Positions 9,459 through 43,859 of a stretch of 64,000 nucleotides of DNA are shown here, in pieces (position 1 is the first letter of the stretch; the number at the start of each line of letters is the position of its first letter). Where the stretch lies: assembly GCF_019654975.1 (NCBI RefSeq), contig NZ_BPEW01000022.1:1-64000 (forward strand), given 5' to 3'. The DNA comes from Shewanella sp. c952. Its GTDB lineage: Bacteria; Pseudomonadota; Gammaproteobacteria; Enterobacterales; Shewanellaceae. The position numbers and the translations under genes are program-made. The notes beneath the pieces were generated by a model, which worked only from the letters and a program-made list of their open reading frames with translations, was not told the origin of the DNA and did no database searches.

Positions 9459-11255
9459 ATGTCACTCGAGTCATTTCACGTTATACGTCTTATACAGCAA
9501 CAGAGCCAAGCACTTGGCGATGCGATAGCACTCGAAGGATTCGAAATGGCCGCTCCTTGGCATCAAGTTAGCTGGGGCCAGTTTGATGTTGTCACCTCAA
9601 AAATTGCACGGGTGTTAATCCAGTTTGGCATAGAGTCGCAAGACCGTGCGGTGATCCTTTCACAGAACTGTCCGCAGTGGACCTGTGCTGATTTAGGCTT
9701 ATTAAAGGCTAAAGCGGTGGTGGTGCCTATCTACCCGACTAGCACTTTAGAACAAGCTGCTTACATAGTTAACGACGCACAGGCTAAACTTATTTTTGCT
9801 GGCGACGCAGAGCAATACGCTATGGCGTGTGATTTGATTGCCCAATGTGATTCAGTATCGCGCATTGTGGTTTTCGATAAGAGTGTGCCGCTGCAAGATA
9901 ACCATAATCACTTTTACTTAGATACACTGCTGGAGCGAGAGCTCGATAAGGCAGTCGATACAGAGTTGCAAAAGCGACTCGCCGATACCAGTCTTGACGA
10001 TCTACTCACGCTTATATACACCTCTGGTACCACGGGTGAGCCAAAAGGGGTGATGTTAGATCACCGTAATATTGCATCAACTGTGCGCCAACACGATCAG
10101 AAGATGAACTTCGAAACTGGCGATACTTCATTGGCATTTTTGCCATTAAGCCATGTATTTGAGCGTGGTTGGAGCTTCTATGTGCTTTGTCGTGGTGGTC
10201 ACAATGTTTATCTGCAGGATCCAATGACAGCAAAAGACGCCATTACTGCTGTGCGTCCGCATACATTATGTGTTGTGCCGCGTTTCCTAGAGAAAGTTTA
10301 TAGCGCAGTACAAGATAAGGTGAGTAAAGCCCCCAATGCACGACAGAAAATGTTTGCTTGGGCGATGTCAGTGGGTGAGCGCCAGTTTGAAGTCAGCCAA
10401 GGCCGAGCTAAAGGCTCTGCAATGTTGAATTTGCAGTGGGCAATAGCCAACAAGCTAGTTTATAGCAAGCTGCAACAGGTATTGGGTGGTCGTCTTAAAT
10501 TTATGCCCTGTGGCGGTGCTGCGCTAGACACTAAAGTGGCTAGCTTCTTCCATAGCATTAATGTACCTGTGCTGTGTGGTTACGGTATGACTGAAACCAC
10601 TGCAACAGTGACCTGTAATACGTTGGGTAACAGAGTGACTGGCTCAAATGGACAAGTATTACCTGAAACCGAGATTAAGCTTGGTAAAGACAACGAAATT
10701 CTTGTTCGTGGTGATACGGTTATGCGTGGTTACTATAACCGCCCACAAGAAACCGAAGAAACCTTTGAAGATGGCTGGCTTAAAACCGGTGATGCGGGCC
10801 ACATTGACGAAAACGGCAATCTGTTTATCACTGACCGTATTAAAGAGCTAATGAAAACCTCAAACGGAAAGTATATTGCCCCGCAGCGTGTTGAGGGCAA
10901 AGTCGGCTGTTGTCCATTCATCGAACAGGTAGCGATTATTGCTGATGCGCGTAACTACGTTACCGCATTGATTGTGCCTGCATTCGAGTCTTTAGAAGTA
11001 TGGGCAAAAGAGAAGGGCGTGCATTATGAATCGCCACTTGAGTTGCTGCGTCATTCCCATGTTGTAGAGCACTTTGAAGAGCGCTTAAAGACCTTACAAA
11101 CAGAGCTCGCAGGGTTTGAGAAGATTAAAAAATTCACTCTACTGCCTGATGCATTTTCAATGGAAGCGGGTTTAATCACTCCAACAATGAAGCTACGCCG
11201 TAAGGTTATTTACAATAAGTATGCGCGAGAAATCGATAAGATGTATGCGCGGTAA
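9459..11255 (+). CDS. long-chain acyl-CoA synthetase (AMP-forming)
   Basis: 598-aa adenylate-forming enzyme that activates fatty acids with ATP and CoA, probably at the cytoplasmic membrane face. The P-loop-like motif YTSGTTGEPKG lies near 186-196, the A5 motif YGMTETTATV near 370, and TGD plus ITDRIKEL(M)KTSNGKYIAP in the C-terminal subdomain. This is the bubblegum/FadD15-type layout of about 600 aa. ATG at 9459 is chosen because AAAGGT precedes it by about 10 nt; the upstream extension lacks conservation-like features. A strong terminator follows, separating it from a thioesterase gene that could act on its products. Confidence 0.92.
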   Translation: MSLESFHVIRLIQQQSQALGDAIALEGFEMAAPWHQVSWGQFDVVTSKIARVLIQFGIESQDRAVILSQNCPQWTCADLGLLKAKAVVVPIYPTSTLEQAAYIVNDAQAKLIFAGDAEQYAMACDLIAQCDSVSRIVVFDKSVPLQDNHNHFYLDTLLERELDKAVDTELQKRLADTSLDDLLTLIYTSGTTGEPKGVMLDHRNIASTVRQHDQKMNFETGDTSLAFLPLSHVFERGWSFYVLCRGGHNVYLQDPMTAKDAITAVRPHTLCVVPRFLEKVYSAVQDKVSKAPNARQKMFAWAMSVGERQFEVSQGRAKGSAMLNLQWAIANKLVYSKLQQVLGGRLKFMPCGGAALDTKVASFFHSINVPVLCGYGMTETTATVTCNTLGNRVTGSNGQVLPETEIKLGKDNEILVRGDTVMRGYYNRPQETEETFEDGWLKTGDAGHIDENGNLFITDRIKELMKTSNGKYIAPQRVEGKVGCCPFIEQVAIIADARNYVTALIVPAFESLEVWAKEKGVHYESPLELLRHSHVVEHFEERLKTLQTELAGFEKIKKFTLLPDAFSMEAGLITPTMKLRRKVIYNKYAREIDKMYAR

Positions 11256-11274
11256 AAGATTAACACAGCAATAG

Positions 11275-11300
11275 AAAAGGGATGCGATGCATCCCTTTTT
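11275..11300 (+). terminator. Rho-independent terminator after the acyl-CoA synthetase gene
   Basis: The stem AAAAGGGATGC / GCATCCCTTTT with a 3-nt loop ends in T's. It is 20 bp after the stop codon. Confidence 0.9.
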
Positions 11301-11428
11301 GCTATCTGGCTTAAAATAAGCAGAGCAGGTATAACTCGAGGTGAGCAAATACTGCGTTGAAAAAGAAATATCGGTAGAATGAATCGATAACATGCCAACA
11401 ATAATAACAAGCATAAGGAAGAGACAGC

Positions 11429-11833
11429 GTGCAGCAGAGTGAATTTAGCTTAACCATACAACCGCGTTTTTGTGAAACCGATGCGCTAGGTCATATCAAT
11501 AACACGGTGATCCCAGTTTGGTTTGAAGCGGGCAGAGAACCGATTTTTAAGATCTTTAATCCACAGCAAGACTTGTCGAAATGGAATCTCATTGTCGCAG
11601 GTTTTACCATCGCCTTTAACGCACCGACTTACTTTGCGAGTGACGTGACAGTCAAAACTTGGGTCAGTCGCATTGGCAATAGTAGTTTCGAGCTCACTCA
11701 GAGCTGTTGGCAAAACGGCAAAAAAACCGCAGAAGCGCAAACGGCGATGGTGCATTACGATTATGCCGCCGAAAAAAGTGTACCTTTGAGTGAAGAGGTA
11801 CGGCAGCAGCTGGCTTTGTTAACGGGTGAATAG
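11429..11833 (+). CDS. acyl-CoA thioesterase, 4HBT hot-dog family
   Basis: 134-aa single hot-dog domain protein that would hydrolyse acyl-CoA thioesters in the cytoplasm. The signature RFCETDALGHINNTVIPVWFE (about 13-33) is the YbgC/FcbC-type active-site segment, with Asp18 and the GHINN loop. The start is GTG with AAGGAAGAG upstream. It lies beyond a terminator from the acyl-CoA synthetase, so it probably has its own promoter. A second hot-dog gene of the same type lies 1 kb away on the other strand. Acyl chain preference is not predictable. Confidence 0.85.
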   Translation: MQQSEFSLTIQPRFCETDALGHINNTVIPVWFEAGREPIFKIFNPQQDLSKWNLIVAGFTIAFNAPTYFASDVTVKTWVSRIGNSSFELTQSCWQNGKKTAEAQTAMVHYDYAAEKSVPLSEEVRQQLALLTGE

Positions 11834-13382: not shown

Positions 13383-14135
13383 GTGAGAGCAATTTATATC
13401 GGTGGATTAGCATGTTGCAGTTTATTCGCGGTTAGCCTGTGCCAAGCAAAAACAGTGAGCCAATTTGAGCCAGTTAAATCCTCGCAAGAGCAGCAAGCCT
13501 ACAAGCTAATTAAATCTGTTGAGCCACAACTACAATTGCTAGTTGATGAGTTACCGCTGCAGCAACCTGTACAGATCGTCTATGGTGCCGAAGACGGGCC
13601 TCTATTTGATCCTCAGTTAATGCAGATCCATATTCCTTATTCGTTTATTACTGAGGTCTTTAACCGCTTTAGCGCAGACAACTATCAAGAAACAGGCATT
13701 AGTGCTGCAACTGCAACTCAAGATGCGTTATTGCACACCATTGGTCACGAATATGGACATGCCTTTATATACGCGAATCAAGTGATGGTGTTGGGTAAGG
13801 AGGAAGATGCAGTTGATACTCTAGCGACCTTACTGCTAATCAATTCGTTTGATGATGGTGCAGATATCGCGCTCAGCGCTGCGGATCTGTTTGCTTTAGA
13901 AGATGAAAGTATTGAAGAATTTGAAGAGCAAGATTTTGCCGATGAGCACAGCCTAGATGCGCAGCGATATTTTGCTACTCTGTGTTTAATCTATGGCAGT
14001 GATCCACAGAAGTTTGTTGGGATGCTCGATAGGCCACAGTCATTGCTACAAAACGGCGAGTATTGCCAAGAGGAGTATTTCCGCCAGAGTGATAATTGGG
14101 ATAGGTTAAAGCAACAATATATCGTCGAAGAATAA
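13383..14135 (+). CDS. exported DUF4344-type putative metallopeptidase
   Basis: 250-aa protein with a signal peptide (hydrophobic 5-20, cleavage near CQA). A zinc motif HEYGH sits in LLHTIGHEYGHAF (about 117-129), followed by a run of Asp/Glu residues near 178-190. The layout (late HExxH with an EDAVDTLA helix after it) fits the DUF4344 family, in which that helix supplies the third ligand. The start is GTG, preceded by GAGAGGT. The gene stands alone between divergent and convergent neighbours and ends at a bidirectional terminator. It is presumably periplasmic; no substrate is known to me. Confidence 0.82.
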   Translation: MRAIYIGGLACCSLFAVSLCQAKTVSQFEPVKSSQEQQAYKLIKSVEPQLQLLVDELPLQQPVQIVYGAEDGPLFDPQLMQIHIPYSFITEVFNRFSADNYQETGISAATATQDALLHTIGHEYGHAFIYANQVMVLGKEEDAVDTLATLLLINSFDDGADIALSAADLFALEDESIEEFEEQDFADEHSLDAQRYFATLCLIYGSDPQKFVGMLDRPQSLLQNGEYCQEEYFRQSDNWDRLKQQYIVEE

Positions 14136-40200: not shown

Positions 40201-40347
40201 TTGATTGCAGACCTTACAATTTGGCTGCTTTGGCAGTTTCATCTCTCGAAACTCCATAGTCATGGCATCGATCATCAAAATTCGCCCAGCTAACGTGCGG
40301 CCCATATTGGCGATGACTTTGACCGCTTGCAGGCAACCGATCATACC
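40201..40347 (-). pseudogene. orphan 3'-terminal fragment of moeB
   Basis: About 147 bp matching the last ~50 codons of the intact moeB at 43086, including the closing CxxC motif (here CKVC, then Asn-Gln-Gly-stop). It is identical over 100 bp (40221-40320 versus 43109-43208), with a 9-bp deletion upstream and loss of similarity beyond about 40347. It has no start. It marks one edge of the block containing the bacteriocin genes and is best read as the original or duplicated end of moeB. Confidence 0.85.
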
Positions 40348-40364: not shown

Positions 40365-40520
40365 CTATTTTCTATTCATTAAAAAAATGACTGCAAAGAA
40401 AGCTGTCATTAATATGGCCGATTGTAGCAAATGTGTTCCAGCGATACCTGTTAAGCCTGCTACCCAAATGCCAATTAGAGCACTTGCAGTATATCCAAAA
40501 AATAGAAATTTGTTACGCAT
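40365..40520 (-). CDS. 51-aa two-TM membrane protein, immunity-like
   Basis: A short gene. The 51-residue product starts MRNKFLFF and has two hydrophobic helices (about 5-24 and 31-47) with a positively charged end (MNRKstop). AAAGG lies 9 nt before ATG. It follows, 26 bp downstream, the stop of a glycine/alanine-rich bacteriocin-core remnant. Small basic two-helix proteins in this position commonly confer bacteriocin immunity. The role is inferred purely from size, topology and place. It ends next to the orphan moeB fragment. Confidence 0.6.
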   Translation of the reverse strand: MRNKFLFFGYTASALIGIWVAGLTGIAGTHLLQSAILMTAFFAVIFLMNRK

Positions 40521-41172: not shown

Positions 41173-41319
41173 CTATTGTAAATATGAGTAAGTAATAATG
41201 ACAGAAAAGTACAGTTCAAACATGGCGAAAAATGCTAGGAACTTACTTTTTTTTCGTAAGGAAATTGCAATGATAAACATATAAATCAATATTAAAGTAA
41301 TAGGGACTATTATTATCAT
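41173..41319 (-). CDS. 48-aa membrane protein coupled to the HExxH peptidase gene
   Basis: A short gene. The 48-residue product has two hydrophobic helices (about 2-20 and 27-46) separated by the basic turn RKKSK. Its ATG lies 2 nt after the peptidase stop codon (TAG CG ATG), so translation is very probably coupled. It may assist or anchor the peptidase, or act as an immunity protein for the bacteriocin encoded upstream. No family recognised; the role is inference from size, topology and coupling. Confidence 0.55.
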   Translation of the reverse strand: MIIIVPITLILIYMFIIAISLRKKSKFLAFFAMFELYFSVIITYSYLQ

Positions 41320-41321
41320 CG

Positions 41322-42044
41322 CTATTTCTTATCAGAGGGGCAATAGATTTCAGAAATCTTGGTTATAATGATATCTTCATTTTCTGGAAAGTGTAAATCA
41401 GTTTTTAATAAGTCGTCAAAACTAACACCTTTAACTTGTGACTGATAAGCTACCTTAGCCCAGGATTCAAAATAAAACTGCCTAGTATCATTTTCCTCAC
41501 CCCAATTGGCAAGTCCCTCGCAATATTCAATCGTAGGTTGCCCTCGAATATAATCAGCACTACCTTCAATTAGCCATTTAGGCGACAGTAAAAAACTAAC
41601 CTCTCCGAGCTCCTCTCTTTGGTTAACATGTTCTAACTCATGTTTAACAAGTTCATCCACGCTTTGGTTAGCATCCTCAGTGCCTTGCTGGTTTATAAAT
41701 ATGTTACTAAAAAAGCTATTAAAACCGAGTGAAGCCCCTGTAAAACTAAAACTGAGAAATCGATAGGTCAATTCATTGCTAACAATCTTTACTGTCACAT
41801 CTTCACAAGAGAAATTGGCTTCTCTAATCTCAAAGTACTCATTAGAACAAGCGTCATATGCTTTTGAATATGGTGTCCAGATAAATAAAGTACAGTAGAC
41901 GACAGCCAATACAGTAAACAAACTGTCAAAAATAGACTTAACATTATCTCCCTTTGTTTTTTTCTTTTTAAGTATAGGGAACAAAAAAAAGGGGGGGGGT
42001 AAATATGACAGAAGCTTATGAAGTTGTATAAACTTAAATTTCAT
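41322..42044 (-). CDS. membrane-anchored HExxH metallopeptidase-like protein
   Basis: 240 aa. A membrane helix (about 38-56) is followed by an extracytoplasmic domain with HELEH in VKHELEHVNQ (about 132-141). WLIEGSADY follows about 22 residues later, giving the gluzincin HExxH...E arrangement of zinc peptidases. AAGGA precedes ATG by about 7 nt. The N-terminal coding sequence contains CCCCCCCCC followed by TTTTTTTT, a slippage-prone tract. It lies 63 bp downstream of the bacteriocin gene. It could process, activate or neutralise the bacteriocin; none of these is demonstrated. Confidence 0.65.
   Translation of the reverse strand: MKFKFIQLHKLLSYLPPPFFLFPILKKKKTKGDNVKSIFDSLFTVLAVVYCTLFIWTPYSKAYDACSNEYFEIREANFSCEDVTVKIVSNELTYRFLSFSFTGASLGFNSFFSNIFINQQGTEDANQSVDELVKHELEHVNQREELGEVSFLLSPKWLIEGSADYIRGQPTIEYCEGLANWGEENDTRQFYFESWAKVAYQSQVKGVSFDDLLKTDLHFPENEDIIITKISEIYCPSDKK
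41984..41999 (-). repeat. homopolymer tract (C9-T8 in the coding strand)
   Basis: Nine C and eight T are adjacent within codons 16-21 of the peptidase gene (positions 41983-41999, plus strand A8 then G9). Loss or gain of one base would shift the frame, so this may be a phase-variation switch. Only one length is visible here. Confidence 0.6.
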
Positions 42045-42107: not shown

Positions 42108-42248
42108 CTAATGAGCTTCGGCAGAGTATGCTAAAGCCCCAACTATTAGTGCTCGAACGCCCCAATATGCGATGATCGCTGGAAATCCACCACCATTTAC
42201 TTGCTCAATCTCGTTCATTGTTAACTCTTCTATTTTTGAAAATTGCAT
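42108..42248 (-). CDS. double-glycine-leader class II bacteriocin (microcin-like) precursor
   Basis: A short gene encoding 46 residues. The leader is MQFSKIEELTMNEIEQVNGG, with the textbook pattern of a double-glycine leader: hydrophobic residues spaced before Leu-x-x-x-Glu-(Ile/Leu)-x-x-Val-x-Gly-Gly. The 26-residue core starts GFPAIIAYWGV and is hydrophobic, with Gly and Ala spacing like class IIb/lactobin-type bacteriocins and a charged C-terminal end (SAEAH). AAGGAAG lies 5 nt before ATG. It overlaps the 3' end of the broken hlyD-like gene by 19 nt. Export and cleavage would need a peptidase-containing ABC transporter encoded elsewhere. Confidence 0.8.
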   Translation of the reverse strand: MQFSKIEELTMNEIEQVNGGGFPAIIAYWGVRALIVGALAYSAEAH

Positions 42249-42625
42249 AATATCTTCCTTAATTTAAACTGTTTAACGTTATGTTTGCTTAGGTGTTTCG
42301 TTGCTCGATGAGAGCTACTAAACCTTAAGCGACTGACTAAGGGCGCGCCGCTTTTAACAATGTCACCTTCTGAAACATGCAGTTTGTCAATGTTTCCGCT
42401 GCGGTTGGCGTAGGTTTTAATCAAACCTTTGTCAGGAACTAAATATCCGCGAACAGTTTCTTTGCGGGCGTAATGAGAAAAGGATAGGAAAAGTATTATT
42501 GCGGAAACAATAAAGACTAAGGTGAACGATGTTGTATATATAGAGATAGGTTGTGCTAAGGAAATGTCACCGTGCAACTTTTGCTTTTGAGCGTCAATGG
42601 CCTGTCGACGAAATAACCCTGACAT
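42230..42625 (-). pseudogene. truncated HlyD/CvaA-type bacteriocin export accessory gene
   Basis: The first ~97 codons are a convincing HlyD-family N-terminus. A cytoplasmic start (MSGLFRRQAID) is followed by a membrane helix (about 34-52), then YLVPDKGLIKTYANRSG and KLHVSEGDIVKSGAPLV, the beginning of the lipoyl-like domain. After this the family match ends abruptly, and about 34 unrelated residues lead into the bacteriocin start region. Full-length relatives have about 400 aa. GGAAG precedes ATG, so a fragment could still be made. Deletion of the rest of the exporter is the simplest reading. Confidence 0.75.
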
Positions 42626-43085: not shown

Positions 43086-43859
43086 TTAATTATTGCAAAT
43101 CTTACAACTTGGCTGCTTTGGCAGTTTCATCTCTCGAAACTCCATAGTCATGGCATCGATCATCAAAATTCGCCCAGCTAACGTGCGGCCCATATTGGCG
43201 ATGACTTTAACGGCCTCTACGGCTTGCAGGCAACCTATCATGCCAACCACGGGTGCGAGAATTCCTGACTCGACGCAGCTGAGCTGTTGTTCACCAAACA
43301 GTTGGCTAAAGCAGCGATAGCATGGTGTTGCTGCTTGATAGTCAAATACTGTAACCATGCCCTCCATACGGATAGCTGCAGCAGAGATAAGCGGGATTTT
43401 GTGCTTAAAGCAGCTTTGATTGAGTTGCTCACGCACCATCACGTTGTCGGTACAGTCCATCACAATCGAGTGCTGTGCAACCAGTGCTTCAATCTCGTGG
43501 TCATCTAATACAGCATTGATGGTATCGATTTTAATATGTGGGTTTAAGGCTGTTAGTGTCTCTTTAGCGGAGTCAACTTTAGCTTGGCCGACATTGGCAT
43601 CTTGATGCAGGACTTGACGTTGTAAGTTAGACACTTCAACGGTATCAAAGTCGACTAAAGTGATTGCTCCCGCGCCTGCTACTGCCAAATATTGGCTGGC
43701 AGCGCAGCCCAAACCGCCCGCACCTATGATTAGTACCTTGGCTTGTTTGAGCTTCTCTTGTCCCTCAAAGTCCATCGCTTTAATGGAGATTTGGCGGCTA
43801 TAACGCAATATTTCCGCGTCAGTTAAAATCTCATCTGTGTCAGTCAGTTCACTCGACAT
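43086..43859 (-). CDS. moeB: molybdopterin-synthase adenylyltransferase
   Basis: 257-aa E1-like enzyme that adenylates the C-terminus of MoaD so it can be thiolated. The nucleotide-binding GAGGLG lies at 46-51, the ATP-contacting DFDTVEVSNLQRQ near 70-82, and DCTDN near 136. Zinc Cys pairs are CYRC (about 180) and CKIC (252-255). Length is normal. It follows moeA by 14 bp, as in the E. coli moeAB operon. Its last 150 bp are duplicated 2.9 kb downstream, so the present 3' end may have been supplied by an inserted cassette; the reading frame is intact. Confidence 0.93.
   Translation of the reverse strand: MSSELTDTDEILTDAEILRYSRQISIKAMDFEGQEKLKQAKVLIIGAGGLGCAASQYLAVAGAGAITLVDFDTVEVSNLQRQVLHQDANVGQAKVDSAKETLTALNPHIKIDTINAVLDDHEIEALVAQHSIVMDCTDNVMVREQLNQSCFKHKIPLISAAAIRMEGMVTVFDYQAATPCYRCFSQLFGEQQLSCVESGILAPVVGMIGCLQAVEAVKVIANMGRTLAGRILMIDAMTMEFREMKLPKQPSCKICNN

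Follow-up and report, generated by a model that had tools for sequence, protein, structure and literature searches.

A probable class II bacteriocin cassette of Shewanella left without its exporter, and the family of exchangeable double-glycine peptide genes to which it belongs

The window analysed here, by which we mean the whole stretch of 64,000 nucleotides, comes from contig C22 of the Shewanella genome G000, and carries on its minus strand a 46-codon frame that a first-pass annotation read as a double-glycine bacteriocin precursor in a microcin/class II bacteriocin locus. Such peptides are generally the business of C39 exporters, in which a peptidase domain cleaves after GG and a pump releases the peptide. 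The locus raises the question of whether so short a frame is a genuine gene and, if it is, what becomes of its product beside a broken hlyD. The features that bear on this question are the following:

40204–40347, minus strand: partial duplicate of the moeB 3' end, delimiting the locus on this side, 89.5% identical to 43092–43244
40365–40520, minus strand: 51-aa hydrophobic ORF, 80% identical to an ORF downstream of a cassette in locus L101 of a relative
41173–41319, minus strand: 48-aa hydrophobic ORF directly after the 240-aa gene, from its position a second candidate for immunity
41322–42044, minus strand: gene whose 240-aa product contains HELEH and EGSADY motifs, zinc-peptidase-like by eye, and also a hydrophobic segment
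42108–42248, minus strand: 46-aa double-glycine precursor gene (stop 42108–42110, core 42111–42188, leader 42189–42248), with 26.4 bits against TIGR03949 and a leader pN/pS of 0.14
42249–42347, minus strand: retained 3' part of the cassette upstream element, comprising P3 and the near-invariant block GCAAACATAACGTTAAACAGTTTAAATTAAGGAAGATATT
42254–42260, minus strand: ribosome-binding site AAGGAAG, 5 nt 5' of the ATG and within the conserved block
42332–42625, minus strand: hlyD 5' fragment, codons 1–98 of about 415, still open, pN/pS 0.18
42334–42345, minus strand: probable deletion joint CGCCCTTAGTCA, from comparison of L090 hlyD, the L099 element and the window
43086–43859, minus strand: moeB, the upstream boundary, which is the neighbour also in L087, L091 and L097

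Translation of 42108–42248 yields MQFSKIEELTMNEIEQVNGG followed by GFPAIIAYWGVRALIVGALAYSAEAH and a stop, the 46 residues that had been claimed for it, and the AAGGAAG that had been placed 5 nt upstream is read there. The leader carries L at −12, E at −8, I at −7, V at −4 and GG at −2/−1, which bears out its proposed fit to the double-glycine consensus of hydrophobic residues at −12, −7 and −4, E at −8 and a GG cleavage site. A strict search of the 64-kb window, combining the leader pattern with GG, a start codon and a ribosome-site score, returned this ORF as its sole match, and only 2 of 100 dinucleotide-preserving shuffles contained any match (mean 0.02). Against the NCBIfam model TIGR03949 the precursor scores 26.4 bits over residues 6–38, passing the cut-off of 21.5, as do four of the six sister peptides tested; its match to Pfam PF10439, Bacteriocin_IIc (17.2 bits, E 0.005), lies below the gathering score of 27.1. 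The shortness of the frame and this sub-cut-off match are what can be said for a chance ORF with a leader-like start, a reading that we reject as having practically no probability, given the rarity of such ORFs in the shuffled windows, the recurrence of element and leader in other genomes, and the mostly synonymous change in the leader. Over the last 13 codons of the leader frame, comparison of the window with 21 others gives pS 0.737 and pN 0.102, a ratio of 0.14, as against 0.84 and 2.03 in the two shifted frames. The leader frame is under purifying selection, and these ratios argue that the leader is translated and selected in its frame, at least family-wide. Conservation of the frame in relatives was one of two points on which the first-pass annotation had staked its reading, and for the leader it holds.

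Blastp (E ≤ 0.01) links the core to none of the 21 others with which it was compared, and the case for its function accordingly rests on the leader, the family model and the context, from which an antibacterial action may be supposed. Class II microcins, as characterized in PMC11494933, have 12–26% glycine, a signal of 15–18 aa and a gene near its exporter; the precursor departs from this description with 5 glycines in 46 residues (10.9%), a 20-aa leader and no exporter. A second GG-leader ORF, the potential partner of a two-peptide bacteriocin, was sought in the window with two leader patterns and not found. Taken together, these sequence features identify 42108–42248 as a real double-glycine precursor gene, of the microcin/class II bacteriocin type of locus.

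The gene is part of a Shewanella family that shares the leader and an upstream element of about 185 nt. Sought with up to three mismatches in 129 Shewanella genomes, the 46-nt block 5' of the ATG is present 25 times, in 16 of them including the window's own, and the reversed control has 0 matches in each row. A covariance model built from 21 element copies finds 28 places in 18 of the 129 genomes, again counting the window's, and with strict filters it finds just 5 genomes in a 394-genome sample of the order, all of this genus and one of them weak. Within the 18 regions compared and the window, a GG-leader ORF follows 22 of 25 elements and is missing after the other 3; one of these 22 ORFs, in L100, has just 4 residues after the GG. 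Thirteen of the 17 element-bearing genomes other than the window's have intact hlyD and a C39-peptidase ABC exporter ahead of the element, the family exporter being present in one piece in the same region (G021, G072, G075, G081, G087, G004, G092, G107, G010, G118, G125, G134 and G022). In G139 the exporter is broken near its C-end, in G090 it is found as three pieces in two frames, and G027 has only 3' pieces of it, along with another pump, 26% identical, whose C39-family domain is above the Pfam cut-off (56 bits). The elements of G133 lie at a contig end, and a 46%-identical C39 pump is encoded elsewhere in that genome. The window's genome has no family exporter. Of the microcin/class II bacteriocin locus originally proposed, what stands is the precursor type, the conserved leader, and the HlyD/C39 exporter beside the family in most relatives; what does not is a working locus in the window, where hlyD is truncated and the exporter deleted.

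The element sits between exporter and peptide, and its structure was derived from 24 aligned copies (23 distinct), with the window left out. The alignment supports three hairpins with 31 pairs, 19 of which show changes on both sides, and 93.3% of cells are paired; a near-invariant stretch with the ribosome site follows. On all five measures used, every one of 500 shuffles falls short of the alignment, in statistics that ignore the relatedness of the copies, and slid structures drop to 26–41% paired, in a control that leans toward the structure because the latter was derived from the same alignment. The AAGGAAG site is near-invariant across the 24 copies, its variants being AAGGAAA in both L087 copies and in L094, and AAGAAAG in L102. 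The window retains a remnant matched by the covariance model at 42246–42371 (E 4.1e-16), from which P1 and the P2 left arm have gone, P3 and the ribosome site being kept. P3 forms in the predicted fold of this remnant; the fold is no stabler than those of shuffles (z −0.17), on account of which a switch masking the ribosome site is offered as an idea only. A search of 3.9 kb of the window against Rfam (E ≤ 1) gave no known family for the element, nor did the elements of L087, L090, L091 and L101 reach any family's gathering score, Spot 42 and FMN being matched elsewhere. An integron attC site, suggested by GTTRRRY-like letters, was dropped because the element precedes the gene and forms three separate hairpins. 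The element might act as a regulatory RNA, as a recombination docking site, or in both capacities.

Beyond the leader, the family is highly variable. Blastp comparison of 22 cores (E ≤ 0.01) places 7 in three related groups and leaves 15 unmatched, including the window's and the L100 stub; with this 4-residue stub not counted, there are about 17 core types unlinked by blastp among the 22 precursors, a missing match being weak evidence for unrelatedness because the peptides are so short. In L090, whose peptides are those of L021 from S. gaetbuli, cassettes 1 and 2 do not differ along the 220 nt upstream of the ATG (20/20 per 20-nt bin), match at 19–20/20 through the 20-codon leader, and then fall to 5–9/20 right after the GG codons. 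Two other L090 pairs similarly keep the leader (18–20 per bin) and then drop to 3–11, and in the two L098 pairs examined identity falls already inside the leader. Between L091 and L097 identity is 94.7% along 4478 nt, from hlyD and the exporter to the first precursor codons, past which no blastn match is seen for about 1.1 kb before identity resumes at 90%. HlyD identity is decoupled from core identity: cores are unlinked where HlyD is 98% (L091–L097) or 99% identical (L093–L094, in one genome), yet they are 87.5% identical at a HlyD identity of 76% (L093–L095) and 64% identical at 65% (L090–L103). The genes after the precursor vary as well, and include an S26-type peptidase (L099), an M23 peptidase (L087), a 156-aa hydrophobic protein without a Pfam match (L097) and several small hydrophobic proteins. 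Five cassettes carry a second GG ORF (L088 at 9854, L089 at 11739, L092 at 8604, L100 at 11479 and L101 at 1385), whose position right after the first suggests two-peptide bacteriocins. Cores are swapped as cassettes in these relatives.

The history of such swaps appears to be written in remnants of the exporter. Pieces of its 3' end, recognized by tblastn, lie ahead of downstream cassettes in 5 of 18 regions, namely L087 (residues 653–683 of 719), L089 (634–707), L090 (677–716), L101 (628–719) and L098 (three pieces, 661–719, 661–716 and 661–717). The third L090 cassette has no piece detectable by tblastn, and in the window itself the upstream piece is the hlyD left by the deletion, with no exporter 3' piece. 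This pattern suggests that the exporter is the point of entry for new cassettes, older ones being left behind. L087 displays two further peculiarities: a transposase DNA-binding piece (PF14706) at 11184–11570 between two bacteriocin cassettes, and, at 9927–10340, directly after the exporter and without the conserved element, two more GG-leader ORFs with proline/glycine-rich tails.

The hypervariable cores, the exchange of whole cassettes with changing partners and the TIGR03949 match resemble toxin-immunity diversification, and in this they argue against the view that these peptides serve for signalling or self-lysis and are not weapons. That view, which would in the case of a signal also require a matching receptor, takes the gonococcal Nap peptides as its model, double-glycine peptides that are described in PMC11798529 as acting in autolysis with no detectable killing of competitors; we regard it as rather unlikely for the present family.

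The second point on which the first-pass annotation had staked its reading was a C39-peptidase ABC exporter, a gene expected in the genome of a class II precursor, whose absence it had named as a refutation. None was found in the assembly (168 contigs, completeness 100%), so that it had singled out the right gene and yet met the very outcome that it had set against itself; an exporter might still lie in an assembly gap or on a lost plasmid, given the 168 contigs. Only one protein in the genome is matched by PF03412, a 725-aa pump adjoining a large repeat protein, whose LssB model score of 923 exceeds the cut-off of 693 and which lacks all of the Q, C, H and D site residues seen in the exporters of seven relatives. 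The C39-like domains of LssB-type pumps are generally without protease function (PMC8277102), and export with this protein as the peptidase was rejected. With the L017 exporter as query the assembly returned only ABC proteins at 20–33% identity, and with HlyD as query only the fragment and two weak matches, with no second full HlyD of the family; a second, distant copy of the exporter was rejected in the light of both searches.

The LssB-type pump is found on contig C26 of the same genome (L003, 24–4460 and 4556–9555), where it comes after the large repeat protein, adhesin-like by eye, and is itself followed by a membrane fusion protein and a TolC-like gene, both named by eye.

If the locus were nevertheless a working one, its peptide would have to be exported in trans by another pump. 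The intact precursor, ribosome site and 3' part of the element, the undecayed hlyD fragment, and the presence of other ABC and HlyD-like genes in the genome are in keeping with this. Against it stand the low identity of those other ABC matches and the position of the sole C39-family domain, devoid of its four site residues, in an LssB-type type I pump; moreover, we know of no other protease that performs the GG cleavage for the double-glycine class. Export in trans is thus quite improbable.

How the exporter was lost can be read with some precision from the hlyD neighbour, which is truly the fragment that it had been called. Its frame continues to 42230, across the first precursor codons, and a species-representative collection contains 14 related loci, 9 under the name Shewanella and the other 5 weakly matching ones from Prevotella. 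In the blastn comparison with L017, hlyD homology stops at 42355 and element homology begins at 42347, as it does in most blastn rows; hlyD homology extends to 42337 (L019), 42334 (L021) and 42337 (L022), overlapping the element. The 12 nt of CGCCCTTAGTCA are common to L090 hlyD at the same codons, and the L099 element has GCCCTTAGTCA, with 11 nt shared. These alignments suggest that hlyD, at codon ~98, was probably joined to the cassette element across an 11–12-nt microhomology, a short direct repeat that would account for a deletion of the exporter and of hlyD past that codon, some 3.2 kb as estimated from L091 coordinates. The deletion looks recent because the hlyD fragment is still open and its pN/pS against relatives, 0.18 over 96 codons, is the same as among the relatives; such undiminished constraint would fit a recent deletion and would also fit a retained function. 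As the deletion is seen in one genome, it could be strain-specific or a misassembly.

The same deletion is part of the reading that the locus is a pure relic, a neutral pseudo-locus drawing no benefit from the remaining cassette. The disappearance of the exporter and of P1 with half of P2 accords with this reading, as does the loss of exporters elsewhere in the family, that of G090 being in three pieces and two frames and G027 having 3' pieces only. Leader, ribosome site, 240-aa gene and hlyD fragment are, however, all open, which tells against it, though a recent deletion would look no different; we hold the pure relic to be possible but doubtful.

Whether the remaining cassette could confer anything turns on the genes beside the precursor. 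The 240-aa HELEH protein, by its position, may be the partner or immunity gene of the cassette. The first-pass annotation had listed it as a peptidase; its family matches are weak, local and below cut-off, that to NF033876 (E 2e-5) being local and reaching 24.2 bits of a cut-off of 205. Its relatives are limited to one 30% partial match, and no close one, in the 128 other Shewanella genomes, and to three weak matches among 384 genomes of the order sample; solved structures and PADLOC gave no match. The 48-aa ORF has no family match above a cut-off in Pfam or NCBIfam, and neither gene matches a known immunity family. A promoter scan found 6 against 3.1 expected.

In L087, L091 and L097 the moeB site is occupied by hlyD, the C39 exporter and a cassette. 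The moeB 3' end is duplicated on both sides of the window locus, and in the S. abyssi-type L087 a moeB piece likewise lies beyond the cassettes (13848–14084). The duplication may be a trace left by insertion or exchange of the locus.

Given the above observations, we consider it probable that the window gene is an exchangeable class II bacteriocin cassette stranded by loss of its exporter. The intact locus would consist of hlyD and the C39 ABC exporter, the structured intergenic element, and the leader with a variable core and a partner (immunity) gene, the peptidase domain of the exporter cutting after GG and its pump releasing the core. New cassettes would recombine in via the shared stretch formed by exporter 3' end, element and leader, and older ones would be pushed downstream as orphans. 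In the window's genome, the deletion of about 3.2 kb from hlyD codon ~98 to the cassette element would have removed the exporter; the precursor gene may still be transcribed and translated, its product probably being neither cut nor exported, and the remaining selectable benefit, if any, would be protection by neighbouring genes. The peptide is most likely an unsecreted orphan, perhaps kept beside its immunity gene in a manner analogous to the pneumococcal blp "cheaters". More tentatively, the family might represent a Shewanella cassette-exchange platform, in which the fixed HlyD/C39 exporter 3' end, the three-hairpin element and the leader dock core-plus-immunity cassettes, the element acts as an RNA switch that sets the exporter-to-peptide output, and exporter-less strains keep the last cassette for immunity alone. 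If so, producers, archives of old cassettes and cheaters would be found within one genus.

As a genus-wide family with a shared leader type, varied cores and changing partners, these loci offer a ready supply of both new peptides and candidate toxin/immunity pairs. They also allow exporter loss, as a transition from producer to possible cheater, to be dated and tested, and the element, with its covarying hairpins, is a candidate RNA not represented in Rfam whose place between exporter and peptide would suit a role in control.

Parts of this picture are already in print. According to PMC3223724, annotation often overlooks the C39-processed twin-glycine bacteriocins that lie near type I pumps, the Shewanella C39 pump SO_A0049 being an example, and class II bacteriocins near Shewanella C39 pumps are to that extent known; the passages of that paper on such pumps do not describe this cassette family, its element or the orphan state. 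In a limited literature search, likewise, neither a cassette family with a common leader nor the element nor orphans without an exporter were found described. Moraxella catarrhalis mcbABCI (PMC2761928), another Gram-negative system, has the same gene order, with an HlyD-family gene, a CvaB-kind ABC exporter, a short double-glycine ORF and a small immunity ORF in succession. As presented in that account, however, mcbABCI is a single cassette whose core hardly varies across the three sources compared, and is described there with neither a structured element nor exchange nor an orphan array; in the window, unlike in mcbABCI, the exporter is lost. The likeness to TIGR03949 (lactobin A/cerein 7B, class IIb) lies in the leader and the start of the core, which score above the curated cut-off. 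Class IIb comprises two-peptide bacteriocins, whereas the window has a single GG ORF, and the second is found in the cassettes of five relatives.

With the CDI/Rhs orphan modules (PMC3150448) the family shares exchangeable modules, here of putative toxin/immunity pairs, and the possibility of ordered arrays. Orphan cdiA-CT/cdiI modules often retain varying amounts of cdiA (PMC3150448), and in the Shewanella relatives the comparable retained upstream pieces are exporter 3' ends. The fixed part here is, in contrast, the exporter and the swapped part a secreted peptide, and no sequence relation is implied; the exchange-and-orphan pattern known from large CDI/Rhs toxins is thus seen in a peptide-export system. 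The pneumococcal blp locus (PMC4517551) offers a variable region of double-glycine bacteriocins and immunity genes beside an often-broken exporter gene, and breaks in blpA have been linked to immunity-only strains, the "cheaters" (PMC4517551). The blp breaks described there involve frameshift-causing repeats and deletions within blpA, whereas the window has lost the whole exporter gene and most of hlyD. By analogy, the pneumococcal blp cheater would be the nearest known state to that of the window locus.
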